Source of the DNA: an uncultured Erysipelotrichaceae bacterium
Lineage (GTDB): Bacteria > Bacillota_I > Bacilli_A > Erysipelotrichales > Erysipelotrichaceae
Reading direction: 5' to 3'
NCBI GenBank assembly: GCA_944325685.1
Contig: CALVBC010000001.1
Span: 1-48,327 of the forward strand
Length of the DNA stretch: 48,327 bases
Shown here: positions 15,100-46,718 of the stretch, in pieces
Position numbering within the stretch: position 1 is the first letter of the stretch
How the letters are laid out: the number at the start of each line of letters is the position of its first letter
Position numbers and translations under genes: made by a program
Notes under the pieces: generated by a model
Databases searched by the model: none
What the model saw: the letters and a program-made list of their open reading frames with translations, nothing else
What the model was told of the DNA's origin: nothing

Positions 15100-15236
15100 C
15101 TAGCTTCAACATACATAAAAACCTGTGCTAAGACAGCACAGGTCAAAAAATCATAATGAACAAATACGATCTTTTACCTCGGCAACCTGATTAAGCTTTG
15201 AGGGCCGTTGCTGTCTTGGGTATATTGATGCCCATA
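15100..15236 (-). ncRNA. L10 leader (autoregulatory mRNA leader)
   Basis: The 5' untranslated region of rplJ has the hallmarks of the Bacillota L10 leader: on the minus strand AAGACAGCAACGG, CCCTCAAAGCTTAATCAGG and TTGCCGAGGT, then a terminator-like hairpin (15121-15143; ACCTGTGCT paired with AGCACAGGT, followed by TTTTT). L10 bound to L12 is known to bind this element and attenuate the operon. Confidence 0.8.
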
Positions 15237-15237
15237 T

Positions 15238-15267
15238 ATTCTACACGAATTATTATTGCCGATGCAA
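15238..15267 (-). promoter_or_regulatory. Promoter of the rplJ-rpoC operon
   Basis: On the minus strand TTGCAT (15267-15262), an 18-nt spacer and TAGAAT (15243-15238) preceded by TG, giving an extended -10. It lies immediately upstream of the L10 leader. Confidence 0.6.
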
Positions 15268-15658: not shown

Positions 15659-17956
15659 CTATTTGGCTGATGTATCAGGGATTATCATCTGTTTGATGAT
15701 ACATGCACCTACTTCATCAGAGTAAATGTACTCACTTCCAAAAGCTTTCTGACATTCAGCTGTTGTCTTTGGGAGATCTTTATCATCGATGATAGATGGT
15801 CTGTGTGGCGGAGTGATTGGTTCCTTATCATCTTCCTCATCACCGGAATCTCCTCCTCCAGAATCTCCACCTCCAGATTTCTCGCTAACTGTAAACGTAA
15901 CTGGATGATTAGTGACTAATGTATCTCCATTTGGACCAGTTGTCGTTATTTCTAGATAGTAGTAATACTCACCAACATTCTTGCCCGGTTCAATTTCAAG
16001 TGTTGTTGAAGTAGCGCCGTCGATCTTTTCCCCATTTGATGATTGGTCTTTGCTTGTAGCTTTATACCATTGATATGTATTGGTCTGGCCAGCTATTTCA
16101 TTTACCTCAGCAACGATCTCCGCTTTCTCATAACCATATACAGCACTAATTCCTGTAAAGGTAACTTTTGGTCCTTGAGCTGGTGAATATGTAACGACAT
16201 CAAACAAATATGCAGTGTTTGTTGTACGTTGCGGATCAGAGATACCAATCTTCGTATGTGCAGATTTATAGAATAGTTTCCATGACCCACCTGATTTTGG
16301 ACAATAATATCCATATATTTCTACTAAATAGTACCCATCTCCATAATCTTCATTAGAATAGTTACCTGCTTTTGTTCGTTCATCTTCGGCGCCATTGATC
16401 GTAATAGTATTTTTTGCATTAGGATTATCACCAAATCCATCTTCTTCCATTCTTGGACCTTGACTTCCGCCCTTCCATACATCCGTCCACTCATATTCAA
16501 ACTTTACTTTTACTTCAGCATCTTCAACATTTTCAATTGGATGGGTTACCTTAACGCCTATAGTATGTTCGGTATCATTAGATAATTTAATCTCTGGATA
16601 CGTATCTGTTGTTTCGATAATTTCACCATCTATAATGAATTCTATTTTCGGCTCCTGTAATACTTTGTTTGTTGTTTCAAGTACCAATTCATCACCTGAT
16701 GGTTTTAAGATCGTTGTGCTCTCTAGTATCTCGTTTTCATACAGCCATCCACCTTTATAACCAATCGTTGCTTCTACATTTGCTTCTGGTATAATGTAGT
16801 TTTCATCAACATACCAATTCCCATCTTGGTCTTTACATATGTTAACGGCTTGCCCCCACAGTTTAGGTTCTGGATCATCGTCGTTATTTCCATATTTAAG
16901 GTAAAATTCATATGTAATTGAATTTGCGTAAGCATCTGATCCACTTGGTTTAAATGAGCTTTTAGTGGAGTGATTTTTAAAAATAGTCAAACGACTCCCT
17001 AAACCGTATCCATTGGCCAATTCTTTAAATGCTCCACCATCATACCCACTTACATCTTCAGCTAAAACAATTATCGTTGTTAAACCCGGGGTGTTGTCAA
17101 AAGCTTCGCTTCCAACGTGTGTTACAGATGACGGTATATATATGGTTGTATTAGCTGGAAATCCTGTACATCCTTCGAATGTTTGCTTATTAATCGCTTT
17201 TAAATTAAATGGTAATTCAAACACAATATTATCATCGCTACTTTTAGTGCGAACGAATTGTAAACCAGAGCATCCATTAAACACGCTTCCACTTCCATCG
17301 CTACTCCCTAAAACCCCTAATGTATCTGGCAAAATTACACCCGTTAGTCCTGTACACTCACGAAACGCACTTTTCTCTATGGTTTCCAACTTTGTATTAG
17401 AGAGATCCAACACACCCGTAAGTTCTGAACAATACATTGCGGCTTGCGATCTTATTATTTCTAGATTGACCGCATTAGAAAAATCTATCTTAACGACTTT
17501 AAACTTATCTGTATAGCTTTTATCACTATCATAGTTATAATTTGTTATACATTTGTATTTCTTTTTCTCGCTTGAATATGAATCTCTAAAACCATCATTG
17601 TAAATGACCGTTACGTTTTCTGGAATGGTAATAGATACAGAAAGTACTTCCCCATCAGGATTATTATCATCATACCATTCTTTTGATATCCCATAAAATG
17701 TGCCACCAACAATAACCATACCTTTCTCCGGTACTTCTATGATGTCATTATTGTCAGTTATCTCTGTTCTAGCCGTTTGACTATTTGACCGCTTGTTTAA
17801 ATCGGTATCATCTTTTTCATTTATGTTATTTTCATTATTTACGATCTCTTGTATTTCAGGATCTTTTATTATATTTCCTTCATCCGCACTAACATATGCT
17901 GCCATCATCGAAATTGACATCATAAACGTTACTAAGATCGTAATAAACCGTTTCAT
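15659..17956 (-). CDS. Secreted BspA-type leucine-rich-repeat surface protein
   Basis: A 765-residue exported protein. The signal peptide covers residues 1-24, with probable cleavage after VSA. Residues about 75-320 hold an LRR_5/BspA-like repeat array (LDLSNTKLETIEKSAFRECT, IPSSVTHVGSEAFDNTPGL). Further beta-rich segments follow, then an Ig-like domain with YQWYKA near 630. A Gly/Ser/Asp linker leads into a C-terminal module with two cysteines ending in PDTSAK. There is no LPxTG motif and no C-terminal membrane anchor. The ribosome site is AGAGGGGAA. ATT/ATA-rich codon use sets it apart from the ribosomal genes around it. It is probably an adhesin or host-interaction protein. Confidence 0.8.
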   Translation of the reverse strand: MKRFITILVTFMMSISMMAAYVSADEGNIIKDPEIQEIVNNENNINEKDDTDLNKRSNSQTARTEITDNNDIIEVPEKGMVIVGGTFYGISKEWYDDNNPDGEVLSVSITIPENVTVIYNDGFRDSYSSEKKKYKCITNYNYDSDKSYTDKFKVVKIDFSNAVNLEIIRSQAAMYCSELTGVLDLSNTKLETIEKSAFRECTGLTGVILPDTLGVLGSSDGSGSVFNGCSGLQFVRTKSSDDNIVFELPFNLKAINKQTFEGCTGFPANTTIYIPSSVTHVGSEAFDNTPGLTTIIVLAEDVSGYDGGAFKELANGYGLGSRLTIFKNHSTKSSFKPSGSDAYANSITYEFYLKYGNNDDDPEPKLWGQAVNICKDQDGNWYVDENYIIPEANVEATIGYKGGWLYENEILESTTILKPSGDELVLETTNKVLQEPKIEFIIDGEIIETTDTYPEIKLSNDTEHTIGVKVTHPIENVEDAEVKVKFEYEWTDVWKGGSQGPRMEEDGFGDNPNAKNTITINGAEDERTKAGNYSNEDYGDGYYLVEIYGYYCPKSGGSWKLFYKSAHTKIGISDPQRTTNTAYLFDVVTYSPAQGPKVTFTGISAVYGYEKAEIVAEVNEIAGQTNTYQWYKATSKDQSSNGEKIDGATSTTLEIEPGKNVGEYYYYLEITTTGPNGDTLVTNHPVTFTVSEKSGGGDSGGGDSGDEEDDKEPITPPHRPSIIDDKDLPKTTAECQKAFGSEYIYSDEVGACIIKQMIIPDTSAK
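15662..15754 (-). other. C-terminal two-cysteine module of the LRR protein
   Basis: The last 31 codons align without gaps to the last 31 codons of the adhesin at 38767-38859. Shared are Cys-1, Gly-6, YI at 9-10, SDE at 12-14, ACI at 17-19, Ile-25 and DTSA followed by Lys or Arg at the C-terminus. It could be a sorting or anchoring signal. Confidence 0.7.
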
Positions 17957-18293
17957 ATCTGTTCCCCTCTTTGAAAATAGGACCGATATAAAATGTTTTT
18001 AGGTAAATGACTCAGTAGAATTTTCTTGGGGAGAAAATCCTACGATACTTGATAAATTAAGTCATTATGAACGAAAAAGCAGACATTTTCGTTCACAAGT
18101 TTTATCATCTAGATGTGTAGTGTGATAGTGCTATTTTAGTTGCTTGCTTTAGAAAATAGCCTAATTACGACGGTACACGTTAGTGACCGATATTCTCTAG
18201 GTTTTAAGTCAATTTAACATATTATTTTTATCGATATACCTTGACTATCATTATACTGTGTTGTACGATATACCCATCAAAAGGAGGTATGAT
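17957..18293. other. Structured intergenic region between surface gene and padR
   Basis: No gene is seen in this 337-nt stretch. It holds three hairpins: 18015-18043 (12-bp arms, one mismatch, 5-nt loop), 18069-18094 (GAACGAAAA with TTTTCGTTC) and 18130-18160 (GCTATTTT with AAAATAGC). AATGACT near 18006 and AGTCATT near 18060 could close around the first. In the surface-gene mRNA (minus strand) the first hairpin displays the loop CCCCA, complementary to the GGGG of that gene's ribosome site. The right end is the padR promoter. Confidence 0.45.
18232..18274 (+). promoter_or_regulatory. padR promoter with flanking direct repeats
   Basis: TTGACT (18241-18246), a 17-nt spacer and TACGAT (18264-18269). 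CGATATACC occurs at 18232-18240 and again at 18266-18274, bracketing the promoter with a 34-nt period. This is a candidate operator for PadR autoregulation. Confidence 0.55.
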
Positions 18294-18626
18294 ATGGACC
18301 TAGAGAAATGGCGTTCACAGATCATGCGTGGAACACTTGAGTATTGTATCTTGCTGATGTTACAAAAGGATACAGCCTATGGTTATGAGATACTACAAAG
18401 ATTATCTAACTACCCTTTATTGTCTTCATCAGAAAGCACGGTATATCCATTACTTAGAAGATTACTAAAGGAAGGATATCTTTCGTCTATGTGGCAAGAG
18501 ACTACTGAAGGTGCCCCGCCACGTAAATACTATACGATAACCGATACTGGTAAAGAATATATCAAGTTACTTGATAAAGATTGGGATACATTGAATAAGA
18601 CGATAAATGAACTCAAAGGAGAATGA
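18294..18626 (+). CDS. PadR-family transcriptional regulator
   Basis: A 110-residue winged-helix repressor. MDLEKWRSQIMRGTLEYCIL, then AYGYEILQRL and STVYPLLRRLLKEGYLSS form the PadR DNA-binding domain, and the wing contains PPRKYYTIT. The start at 18294 is chosen because AAAAGGAGG sits 6 nt upstream; a GTG at 18258 has no such site. The next gene starts 1 nt after its stop. PadR genes paired with DUF1700 membrane proteins usually form envelope-stress or drug-responsive switches; the inducer here is unknown. Confidence 0.9.
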   Translation: MDLEKWRSQIMRGTLEYCILLMLQKDTAYGYEILQRLSNYPLLSSSESTVYPLLRRLLKEGYLSSMWQETTEGAPPRKYYTITDTGKEYIKLLDKDWDTLNKTINELKGE

Positions 18627-18627
18627 C

Positions 18628-19185
18628 ATGGATAAGAGATTAGAAGTATATCTAGAGAAAGTAAATAAGTATCTTAAAGGCATGACCATCGATGAAAGAG
18701 AAGATATCATCAAAGAAATACGAAGCACGATGGTCGATATGCAAGATGATGATCTTGTAGTTGATCAAATCCTAGAAAGGCTTGGCGACCCTAAAGATAT
18801 GGCTAAAGCTTATCTTGGTGATATGATCACTAAAACAGAAGGTCTTAGCTTCAAAAAGGTCATGATGATGATCGGCTACTACAGTATCGTCGGGATATCT
18901 GGCATGATGATCATCCCTGTACTTGGCATCATGTCACCGACTCTTATACTAAGTGGCGCTGTATGTATCATCGCTGGCTTTTTAAAGGTCATCGGTGAAG
19001 CCTTGGGCGATGATATGTCCTTTATCATGGTCAATATAGCTGGTAATTCCTTTAGTCCTTTTATGACCCTTATCATATGCATCATATGTGGCATAGCCTT
19101 TATCATCATCGGAGTCATCATGTGGAAAGGATTAAAGTACTATATCGAAAAGGTATCAGTGGGTAAAAAATACATCAAAGCGTAA
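18628..19185 (+). CDS. DUF1700 (HAAS domain) membrane protein
   Basis: A 185-residue protein with an N-terminal soluble HAAS-type helical domain (about 1-65; YLEKVNKYLKGMTIDEREDI and ILERLGDPKDMAKAYLGDM), followed by three or four hydrophobic helices. It is the usual partner of PadR regulators and is thought to tune them or an envelope function. The ATG at 18628 is used because AAAGGAG lies 6 nt upstream. It is in one operon with padR and is followed by a terminator. Confidence 0.85.
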   Translation: MDKRLEVYLEKVNKYLKGMTIDEREDIIKEIRSTMVDMQDDDLVVDQILERLGDPKDMAKAYLGDMITKTEGLSFKKVMMMIGYYSIVGISGMMIIPVLGIMSPTLILSGAVCIIAGFLKVIGEALGDDMSFIMVNIAGNSFSPFMTLIICIICGIAFIIIGVIMWKGLKYYIEKVSVGKKYIKA

Positions 19186-19208
19186 GATCATATTCAGCAG
19201 AATACATA

Positions 19209-19239
19209 AACAGGACATTAAACTTGTTCTGTTTTTTTA
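19209..19239 (+). terminator. Terminator of the padR operon
   Basis: AACAGGACA pairs with TGTTCTGTT (one G-U) around an AT-rich loop and is followed by TTTTTTT. Confidence 0.85.
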
Positions 19240-19286
19240 TATTTTGCACAATATATTTATTTATATCGAATATGGGTGTAATAGTA

Positions 19287-19371
19287 ACACTTTTCAATAT
19301 GATTTAATGCCTTAAAAATACACTTTTCAATGATTTTTGATGGTCATTTTATACACTTTTCAATATGATTT
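19287..19371 (+). repeat. Three direct repeats with an exact 33-nt period
   Basis: Copies of acacttttcaatatgattt start at 19287, 19320 (a variant lacking AT) and 19353. The starts are exactly 33 nt apart, roughly three helical turns. The last copy runs into the -35 box of the ABC-F promoter. This is a candidate regulator-binding array. Confidence 0.65.
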
Positions 19372-19398
19372 GACAATCTCTCCCCTTCTTTTTATGAT
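19370..19398 (+). promoter_or_regulatory. Consensus sigma-A promoter of the ABC-F gene
   Basis: A perfect TTGACA (19370-19375), a 17-nt spacer and TATGAT (19393-19398). The transcript would start near 19405, just ahead of the leader peptide. Confidence 0.85.
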
Positions 19399-19423
19399 AT
19401 AGCCATCGAAAGGTGGTGAGAGG

Positions 19424-19450
19424 ATGTACAAAAGTCTATCAGTCAGATAA
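19424..19450 (+). CDS. Leader peptide MYKSLSVR
   Basis: An eight-codon frame starting with ATG at 19424 and ending in TAA, preceded by AGGTGG with 7-nt spacing. Codons 2-6 form the left arm of the first attenuator hairpin, so a ribosome stalled on it would open that hairpin. Leader peptides of this kind are known upstream of ABC-F and erm resistance genes. This peptide itself is not one I recognise. Confidence 0.65.
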   Translation: MYKSLSVR

Positions 19451-19514
19451 AAATGGATATAGACTTTTGTGATTTCTATATCCGATATTAAAGGAGGTAT
19501 CAGATGATAGAAAT
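19428..19514 (+). promoter_or_regulatory. Three-hairpin translational attenuator of the ABC-F gene
   Basis: Three mutually competing stems. Stem 1 pairs 19428-19439 with 19459-19470 (12 bp, perfect). Stem 2 pairs GGATATAGA (19455-19463) with TCTATATCC (19475-19483). Stem 3 pairs ATTTCTAT (19472-19479) with ATAGAAAT (19507-19514), extended inward by ATC with GAT and GATA with TATC; it encloses the ribosome site AAAGGAGG and the ATG at 19504. Stem 2 shares strands with both others. Stalling in the leader would break stem 1, favour stem 2 and free the start. Confidence 0.75.
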
Positions 19515-21033
19515 AAACAGACTCAAACTAACCCATCGTTTAGATCATCGTATCTTGATCGATGATCTAAGCCTAACGATAAATGATAATGATAAGATCG
19601 CCATCATCGGTGAAGAAGGCAATGGTAAATCCACGCTTTTAAAAGTGATCCACGATAAGTCTTTAGTAAGTGACTATATCGATATCGAAGGTCATGTGAA
19701 TAAACTAGGACATAAGACCGCTTATCTGCCACAAGAGTTACCAAGCGAGTATAAAGATATGAGCGTAATCGAATACTTCATGCGCCTTGATGACTTCTTT
19801 TCGATCAACCCTAAGACCCTAATAAAGATCACAAGTGACTTCTCATTAGATAAAAACATCTATTACAGCGACCGTAAACTAAAGACCTTCTCAGGTGGTG
19901 AGCTCATCAAAATCGAGATGGCATATCTATTACTTGAAGAAGCTGATGTCTTATTATTAGATGAACCTAGTAATGACCTTGATATCAGTACCTTAGAATT
20001 CTTAGAGCGCTTTATAAATGACTTTGATGGTCCGATCATCTATATATCCCATGATGAGACCCTGATCCAAAATACCGCGAATAAGATCTTACATATCGAG
20101 CAGATCAGAAGGAAGACCACACCACGGCATACGATCTATAAAGGTGACTACATGTCTTATATCGATCAAAGGAATAGATCGTTTATCATCCAAGACAAAA
20201 ATGCCGCTAAAGAGCGAAGTGAATTCGCTAAAAAAGAAGCTCGCTACCAAAAGATCTATGAAAGGGTCAACCATGAGCTCAATACCGTATCACGCCAAGA
20301 TGCCCATGGTGGCTACCTACTAAAGAAGAAGATGCATGCGGTCAAATCCTATGAGAAAAGACTTGATAAAGAAAAGGATGAACTAACATCTTTTCACGAT
20401 GAAGAAAAGGCGATCATGATCGATCTTGAGGATGTCTATATCCCAAATAGTAAAAAGGTCATCGATATCGATATCGATGAATTAAAGGTCCAAGATAGGG
20501 TCTTAGCCAAAGACATCCATTTAGAACTATATGGCCCGAAAAAGATCGCCATCATCGCTAAGAACGGGACTGGTAAGACTAATTTATTAAAATACATCAA
20601 AGACTATATCGCCAAAGACCTAAAGGTCTCTTATATGCCGCAAAACTACACCGATATGATGGACCTTGATATGAAGGTCACTGACTTTATCAAAAAGGAC
20701 CCTACTAAAGATGAACTCAGTAAGATCATGACTTTACTTGGCTCTATCAAGTTCAAAGATGATGAGATGTTACATAGGATAGGTGATCTAAGTGGTGGCC
20801 AAAAAGCCAAGCTTTTCTTTATCAAGATGATCTATGATCAAAGTCAAGTGCTGATATTAGATGAGCCAACACGTAACTTCTCCCCTTTATCAAATCCGGT
20901 CATAAGAAAGATATTGAAGGATTATAAAGGTGCCATCATCATAGTGTCACATGATAGGCTACTACTAAATGAAGTACCTGATCAAATCTATGAACTAACA
21001 AGTATAGGCTTAAAGCCTATAGATAAGGTATAA
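19504..21033 (+). CDS. ABC-F ATPase, probable ribosomal protection protein
   Basis: A 509-residue protein with two ABC ATPase domains and no membrane segments. Domain 1 has GEEGNGKST (about 36-44), the signature TFSGGE and the Walker B VLLLDEPSNDLD. A charged, coiled linker spans about 205-300, where ABC-F proteins reach into the ribosome. Domain 2 has IAKNGTGKT, LSGGQKAKLFF and VLILDEPTRNFSP. The second Walker B ends in TRNFSP rather than TNHLD, a variant I associate with the antibiotic-resistance branch (Lsa/Vga-like). Together with the leader-peptide attenuator, this suggests drug-inducible protection of the ribosome. The drug class cannot be read from sequence. Confidence 0.85.
   Translation: MIEINRLKLTHRLDHRILIDDLSLTINDNDKIAIIGEEGNGKSTLLKVIHDKSLVSDYIDIEGHVNKLGHKTAYLPQELPSEYKDMSVIEYFMRLDDFFSINPKTLIKITSDFSLDKNIYYSDRKLKTFSGGELIKIEMAYLLLEEADVLLLDEPSNDLDISTLEFLERFINDFDGPIIYISHDETLIQNTANKILHIEQIRRKTTPRHTIYKGDYMSYIDQRNRSFIIQDKNAAKERSEFAKKEARYQKIYERVNHELNTVSRQDAHGGYLLKKKMHAVKSYEKRLDKEKDELTSFHDEEKAIMIDLEDVYIPNSKKVIDIDIDELKVQDRVLAKDIHLELYGPKKIAIIAKNGTGKTNLLKYIKDYIAKDLKVSYMPQNYTDMMDLDMKVTDFIKKDPTKDELSKIMTLLGSIKFKDDEMLHRIGDLSGGQKAKLFFIKMIYDQSQVLILDEPTRNFSPLSNPVIRKILKDYKGAIIIVSHDRLLLNEVPDQIYELTSIGLKPIDKV
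21003..21021 (+). promoter_or_regulatory. Palindrome upstream of the HAD gene
   Basis: TATAGGCT, TAA, AGCCTATA form a perfect 8-bp inverted repeat inside the 3' end of the ABC-F gene. It ends 7 nt before a TATAAT hexamer (21029-21034) that sits 6 nt from the next ATG. This could be an operator or a weak hairpin. Confidence 0.35.
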
Positions 21034-46593: not shown

Positions 46594-46622
46594 TTTACAA
46601 ATATCCTCGATGGTGCTATAGT
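46594..46622 (+). promoter_or_regulatory. Promoter of the riboswitch-antiporter transcript
   Basis: TTTACA (46594-46599), a 17-nt spacer and an extended -10 TGCTATAGT (hexamer 46617-46622). Transcription would begin near 46629, exactly at the aptamer. Confidence 0.7.
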
Positions 46623-46628
46623 ATGCAC

Positions 46629-46690
46629 AGGGAATGAAGTTCTCCCTTGGATTACCTAAACCGCTTTTACAGCTGATGACTTCTGCGATC
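46629..46690 (+). ncRNA. Fluoride riboswitch (crcB motif)
   Basis: Stem AGGGA (46629-46633) with TCCCT (46643-46647) encloses ATGAAGTTC, whose GAAGT can pair with ACTTC at 46679-46683 as the crcB pseudoknot. Then come AAACCGC (46658-46664) and GCTGATGACTTCTGCG (46672-46687), the most conserved crcB strings. Compared with the Thermotoga petrophila aptamer there is a longer linker before AAAC. Such RNAs turn on fluoride exporters and some proton antiporters. Confidence 0.82.
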
Positions 46691-46718
46691 TTTTTTCGCA
46701 GTCGGTCATCAGCTTTTT
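46671..46718 (+). terminator. Riboswitch-controlled terminator
   Basis: AGCTGATGAC (46671-46680) pairs with GTCATCAGCT (46705-46714), with an inner CTGCGA/TCGCAG, followed by TTTTT. Its left arm is the 3' half of the aptamer, so ligand binding should prevent termination. Confidence 0.88.

Follow-up and report, generated by a model that had tools for sequence, protein, structure and literature searches.

The window, by which we mean the whole stretch of 48,327 nucleotides that was analysed, belongs to the 1.36-Mb genome of an uncultured Erysipelotrichaceae bacterium. It contains a gene for an ABC-F ATPase that is preceded by a short leader open reading frame (ORF) and by RNA segments able to pair in alternative ways. 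The features of the locus are as follows.

19370-19398, + strand: sigma-70-type promoter, TTGACA-17-TATGAT, with 11 of 12 consensus matches
19409-19419, + strand: Shine-Dalgarno (SD) region of the leader ORF, AAAGGTGGTGA, anti-SD pairing -17.1 kcal/mol
19424-19450, + strand: leader ORF, MYKSLSVR plus TAA, 8 codons, read directly; each of the seven homologues has a mini-ORF starting with ATGTAC in the corresponding position
19428-19439, + strand: segment 1, the 5' arm of stem 1, within codons 2-6; from direct reading and folding, with its own 3' arm as best partner
19455-19470, + strand: segment 2, which enters stem 1 as its 3' arm (19459-19470) and stem 2 as its 5' arm (19455-19463); GGATRTAGA in seven of seven leaders
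19472-19483, + strand: segment 3, which enters stem 2 as its 3' arm (19475-19483) and stem 3 as its 5' arm (19472-19479); compensatory change in homologue L010
19484-19514, + strand: segment 4, with the SD AAAGGAGG (19490-19497), the ABC-F start codon and the 3' arm of stem 3 (19507-19514); from direct reading and folding
19504-21033, + strand: ABC-F ATPase of 509 aa with two ABC domains and a helical hairpin linker (about 216-294); from NF000355, Pfam ABC_tran (two stretches) and fold matches

The leader codons are ATG TAC AAA AGT CTA TCA GTC AGA TAA, preceded by a strong SD. Given the position of the promoter, the transcript is expected to start near 19405, about 19 nt 5' of the leader ATG. 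By eye, -35 and -10 boxes resembling those of the window were found just 5' of the leader in four homologues (L009, L011, L012 and L013). A 19-nt repeat, ACACTTTTCAATATGATTT, occurs in three copies at 19287-19371 (+) with a spacing of exactly 33 nt; the middle copy is 79% identical, and the last runs into the ABC-F promoter, sharing two bases with the 5' end of its -35 box. Beyond the two exact copies here, the repeat was not detected elsewhere in the genome at ≤2 mismatches. These repeats possibly represent an operator array.

The encoded protein combines two ABC domains with a helical linker and has no membrane part, a layout that is not diagnostic of ARE-ABCF proteins since it is common to housekeeping ABC-F proteins. 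The best NCBIfam profile was NF000355 (ribosomal-protection-like ABC-F), at 291.8 bits and below the cut-off of 380, and all named ARE profiles scored far below their cut-offs, placing the protein outside the curated ARE and ribosomal-protection profiles. An AlphaFold model (3 sequences) was of moderate quality (pLDDT 74, pTM 0.54) and matched the folds of PoxtA, VmlR2, Sal(B), VgaA and LsaA, and also of EttA/Uup. As resistance and housekeeping ABC-F proteins were matched alike, the model leaves the function unsettled. No relative at E ≤ 1e-60 was found on plasmids, which thus offered no hint that a resistance gene of this type is mobile, and a search of GTDB genome contigs for relatives returned two loci only, both orthologues. 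With the NF000355 score below the cut-off, we infer, rather than read from a profile, a role in resistance; the protein is a likely but unproven resistance determinant. The inducible resistance determinant predicted in an earlier note on this DNA therefore stands as far as an ABC-F gene is preceded by an attenuator, while the resistance itself is putative.

The earlier note had also described three competing hairpins, one overlapped by the MYKSLSVR frame, and direct reading bore this out. Stem 1 (19428-19439/19459-19470) has 12 perfect pairs, stem 2 has 9 and stem 3 has 8, and the 5' arm of stem 1 falls inside the leader ORF. Bases 19459-19463 are common to stems 1 and 2 and bases 19475-19479 to stems 2 and 3, so that stems 2 and 3 are mutually exclusive, as had been claimed, while stems 1 and 3 are able to coexist. 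The minimum free energy structure of 19395-19530 consists of stem 1 plus stem 3 at -39.3 kcal/mol, compared to -21.4 +/- 3.1 kcal/mol for shuffled sequences (z -5.84; 0 of 200 as good as the native one). Stem 3 extends inward through 19480-19482/19503-19505 and 19484-19489/19496-19501. These inner pairs place AAAGGA of the ABC-F SD in a six-base apical loop and pair the A and T of the ATG, in agreement with the proposal that stem 3 sequesters the ABC-F start. In the window, stem 3 is more stable than stem 2 (-11.6 vs -8.9). No terminator was found between the leader and the ABC-F gene in the window; the sole terminator-like site in 19150-19560 lies at 19208-19234, after the upstream gene. An Rfam scan returned no family at the leader site.

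Orthologues of the ABC-F gene at E ≤ 1e-70 occur in 118 of 273 genomes of the family. A full orthologue is present in 6 of the 9 genomes of the genus, and the same leader was found in one genome of a sister genus (L035). All seven of these leaders (six in the genus, one in the sister genus) retain the whole layout: they start with ATGTAC, are 6-9 codons long and have their ATG 79-95 nt 5' of the ABC-F ATG. The encoded peptides, MYKSLSVR (window), MYRSLSIR, MYRNLV, MYKDQDTVK, MYRAHI, MYNDLFRK and MYKSIKTNN, share Met-Tyr and nothing beyond. Segments 2 and 3 are nearly fixed (GGATRTAGA ... TTTCTRYATCC), as is expected of sequences that must pair in two ways. A search of the 273 family genomes with the stem-2 pattern gave 6 matches, each located before this ABC-F gene, and none with a reversed-pattern control. 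A covariance model applied to 147 genomes recovered the same seven sites and one further match (G328, 27 bits), which was rejected as a chance match as it lies inside a coding region reading as helicase-like.

Covariation in homologues, which the earlier note had proposed as a check, was found in two of the stems. In L010, stem 2 carries a compensatory A-U to G-C change. RNAalifold on a MAFFT alignment recovered stem 2 and the SD hairpin and missed stem 1, because the 3' arm was misaligned; stem 1 was therefore examined by an arm-swap test, in which the duplex energy of each coding 5' arm with its own noncoding 3' arm was compared to that with the arms of its relatives. Own arms paired with a mean of -12.5 kcal/mol vs -7.6 kcal/mol for swapped arms, and the own pairing was the best in its row for 6 of the 7 leaders. 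Among all 5040 ways of assigning the arms, the identity assignment came second; once the near-duplicate L009 was left out, it came first of 720. Codons 3-5 thus change together with the noncoding arm, which preserves the pairing and not the peptide. Judged from these sequences, selection acts on the RNA pairing and not on the peptide beyond Met-Tyr. The leader element is real, conserved and functional-looking.

The effect of a ribosome on the leader was computed by treating its footprint as a simple block from -15 to +15, with the P-site codon's first base as the reference point, and refolding the RNA. When held at the start codon, a ribosome shields 19424-19439 and hence the entire 5' arm of stem 1. 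For a window transcript ending just before the ABC-F ATG, the probability of stem 2 was approximately 0.99-1.00 as long as the ribosome stood on any of codons 1-6, fell to 0.40 for codon 7, and was 0.00 once codon 8 or the stop codon had been reached. Across the seven leaders, codons 1-4 license stem 2 (≥0.86), the exception being codon 1 of L013 (0.09), and in none of them was stem 2 licensed by a ribosome on the last codon or the stop. On the full window transcript, stem 2 reached only 0.02-0.20 in the presence of a stalled ribosome, and stem 3 was dominant; for a ribosome at codons 1-5, the values obtained with two transcript lengths were 0.02-0.14. The proposal that a stalled ribosome favours stem 2 therefore withstood RNA folding for the truncated transcript carrying an early-codon ribosome and failed for the finished one. 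Since stem 2 of the window prevails only as long as the ABC-F start has yet to be transcribed, a kinetic, co-transcriptional choice must be assumed, and we concluded that the switch is probably decided during transcription.

The cost of opening the ABC-F ribosome-binding site (RBS) in the window nevertheless dropped from 11.4 to 6.3-7.5 kcal/mol with the ribosome over codons 1-6; as computed, a ribosome on the first few codons would switch the RNA structure so as to expose the gene. In 300 shuffles restricted to the stretch between leader start and SD, with leader start and RBS kept, an RBS that is locked and then opened to this degree was equalled in 5 cases for the window and in 0-5 cases for five of the six other homologues. 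The remaining one, L011, had a weak lock (5.6 kcal/mol) and a drop that was not significant (51 of 300).

From the leader, its stems, their covariation and the position window in the computed folds, all obtained by sequence analysis and computation, we infer arrest, co-transcriptional choice, inducer and resistance. We consider it probable that the locus is a translational attenuator in which early-codon arrest by drugs of the pleuromutilin, lincosamide and streptogramin A type opens the ABC-F RBS. When drug is absent, ribosomes would traverse the eight-codon leader and leave, stem 1 would form, and segment 3 would be free for segment 4, locking the ABC-F SD and start in stem 3. A ribosome stopped at the start codon, or within a few codons after it, would cover the 5' arm of stem 1 with its footprint (to about +15/16); segment 2 would then capture segment 3 as stem 2 on the emerging RNA ahead of the synthesis of segment 4, which would keep the ABC-F RBS open. 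The likely inducers are drugs that halt ribosomes upon initiation or immediately afterwards and depend little on the sequence, namely pleuromutilins, lincosamides and streptogramin A. The ABC-F protein would be made only under drug and would probably protect ribosomes from the same three groups.

In ermC-type attenuators, segments pair 1:2 and 3:4 in the repressed state and 2:3 in the induced state, the SD and start are locked, and there is no terminator; the erm leader has 19 residues, and a macrolide arrests the ribosome on it at one fixed codon in a peptide-specific manner; arrest on MsrDL is likewise peptide-specific. The window shares the segment logic, the locked SD and start and the lack of a terminator, with 2:3 pairing on nascent RNA only. 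Unlike the ermC type, the peptide of the window clade varies and is short, and early positions alone license the switch. No conserved arrest peptide with a drug-specific stall at a defined codon was found among the seven leaders, which have only Met-Tyr in common; the window switch is therefore not an erm-type member, and peptide-specific arrest of the ErmCL/ErmBL kind is unlikely. Thus, of the erm-type attenuation suggested in the earlier note, the change from 1:2 plus 3:4 to 2:3 was upheld and the peptide-specific arrest was not. The msrD gene also stands behind a short leader peptide, MsrDL; unlike what is proposed for the window, it is reported to be induced by cladinose-containing macrolides (PMC10314930).

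Published ABC-F leaders carry tiny upstream ORFs (uORFs): MIN in vmlR (PMC9226507), and MR[I/M] in cplR, MK[L/Q] in VmlR2 and MAGN in LsaA (PMC10201436). PLSA drugs are said to arrest such mini-uORFs with little sequence preference (PMC9226507, PMC10201436). As in vmlR of Bacillus subtilis, a mini-uORF with its own SD lies 5' of a chromosomal ABC-F gene, uORF arrest would free downstream RNA, an SD-sequestering hairpin is involved, and variants of the uORF sequence are tolerated, those of vmlR still working (PMC9226507). In contrast, vmlR relies on an intrinsic terminator/antiterminator with pausing in a 219-nt leader (PMC9226507), whereas the leader of the window has approximately 100 nt, no terminator and an 8-codon uORF. 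Clostridioides difficile cplR, which is PLSA-responsive, resembles the window in its short uORF and locked SD; it differs in joining transcriptional termination to SD locking, and a four-segment relay is not reported for it in the available part of the source (PMC10201436). In Streptomyces, the uORFs of are5sc and tiaA arrest at the start codon with lincosamide, pleuromutilin and streptogramin A; toeprints on are5scL1 and tiaAL appeared there under PLSA drugs and not under erythromycin (PMC12421871). These, unlike the window, are long leaders (194-232 nt) of actinomycete ARE5 proteins (PMC12421871). The absence of an intrinsic terminator sets the window apart from the terminator subtype represented by vmlR and cplR. 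Licensing by codons 1-4 (1-6 in the window) agrees better with start-codon or early arrest of the vmlR and cplR kind than with macrolide arrest of the erm type. Taken together, the switch has an input like that of PLSA-arrested ABC-F mini-uORFs and an RNA logic like that of erm attenuators. The mechanism class is known; new for the clade are its details, namely a terminator-free, peptide-blind design with early-position gating and a probable co-transcriptional choice.

Among other readings, a general sensor of translation stress, in which any slowing at early codons (shortage of an amino acid or tRNA) opens the gene and resistance is incidental, is unlikely, although it survives best. The ABC-F mini-uORFs studied to date answer PLSA drugs (PMC9226507, PMC10201436, PMC12421871), and the leader, unlike those of amino-acid attenuators, has no run of codons for one amino acid; on the other hand, it makes no difference to the switch on which of codons 1-4 the ribosome sits, and the ABC-F protein is outside the named resistance families. 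We regard as improbable a classic erm-type attenuator, in which the nascent MYKSLSVR chain would cause a macrolide to arrest the ribosome at one particular later codon. Its four-segment logic is identical, but the peptides vary in sequence and length (6-9 residues) with no common motif after Met-Tyr, and in the window a ribosome at codon 8 or the stop bars stem 2, with codon 7 giving a partial value (0.40). Phenicols and oxazolidinones arrest ribosomes when the penultimate residue is Ala, Ser or Thr. A sensor of these drugs, acting through MYKSL in the window, has an equally small chance: Ser4 would arrest the ribosome at codon 5, within the licensing range of the window, but positions 2-4 hold no Ala, Ser or Thr in MYRNLV, MYKDQDTVK and MYNDLFRK, and the corresponding codon 5 of MYRAHI is not licensing (0.05). 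Least credible of all are constitutive hairpins that set a low basal level with a non-regulatory leader ORF, for although induction is as yet a prediction, an SD-led leader occurs in seven of seven homologues, the stem arms covary while the codons change, and mini-ORFs are widespread in the family.

The leader is part of a wider pattern. Among 89 orthologues with ≥200 nt read upstream, a mini-ORF (SD-led, 2-12 codons) precedes 62, compared to 7-14 in shuffles. The count of 62 is a minimum, as MKL mini-ORFs whose SDs are weaker escaped the rule. By the same rule, 3 of 39 open frames in the window, the ABC-F gene counted among them, had a uORF. A short SD-led uORF shortly 5' of the ABC-F gene is thus present in the window and in most orthologues, and the leader, described at first as unfamiliar, is not isolated. 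A simple rule sorted the 62 into 23 with direct pairing (seven genera), 14 with a terminator-like hairpin and 25 with neither, the last including the seven relays. In the direct-pairing orthologues (L049, L055, L058, L068, L069, L071, L073-L075, L078, L080-L085, L087, L089, L090, L093, L096, L097 and L103), the mini-ORF itself, over its first 17 nt, can pair with the ABC-F RBS in an uninterrupted run of as many as 17 pairs; the lock would thus be removed directly by an arrested ribosome. Own mini-ORFs pair with the RBS at -13.6 kcal/mol vs -7.7 kcal/mol for swapped ones (0 of 5000 permutations as good), and a start-codon ribosome cuts the opening cost by approximately 4-15 kcal/mol in many of these leaders. 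Lys or Arg at codon 2 or 3 was found in 34 of 46 distinct mini-ORFs vs 25% in shuffles, a figure partly confounded by ancestry and RNA pairing. Among leaders L001-L120, Tyr at codon 2 occurs in several genera with different RNA architectures.

We tentatively suggest, at somewhat less than even confidence, that within this one bacterial family the start-codon-arrest uORF of the ABC-F gene was kept and the switch below it was replaced repeatedly (relay, direct RBS pairing, terminator). The relay of the window would then differ from both the vmlR/cplR and the erm kinds, being a PLSA attenuator that lacks a terminator, is blind to the peptide, is gated by ribosome position and makes its choice during transcription. 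The locus adds an uncharacterised bacterial clade to those with probable drug-inducible intrinsic ABC-F genes, and offers a naturally occurring set of leaders whose three types of RNA switch all appear to be driven by one early-arrest signal. Peptide-independent reading of early-arrest drugs and the evolutionary replacement of switches thereby become testable.

Directly 5' of the locus, at 18258-19185 (+), lie genes for a PadR regulator and then a HAAS-domain protein, followed by the terminator-like hairpin. Further upstream, 15659-17956 (-) encodes a 765-aa protein with a hydrophobic, signal-like N-terminal stretch that, as read from its sequence, appears to be secreted or surface-located and to carry leucine-rich-type repeats. 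Elsewhere in the window, the Rfam scan identified a ribosomal protein L10 leader at 15107-15238 (-) and a fluoride riboswitch at 46621-46692 (+).
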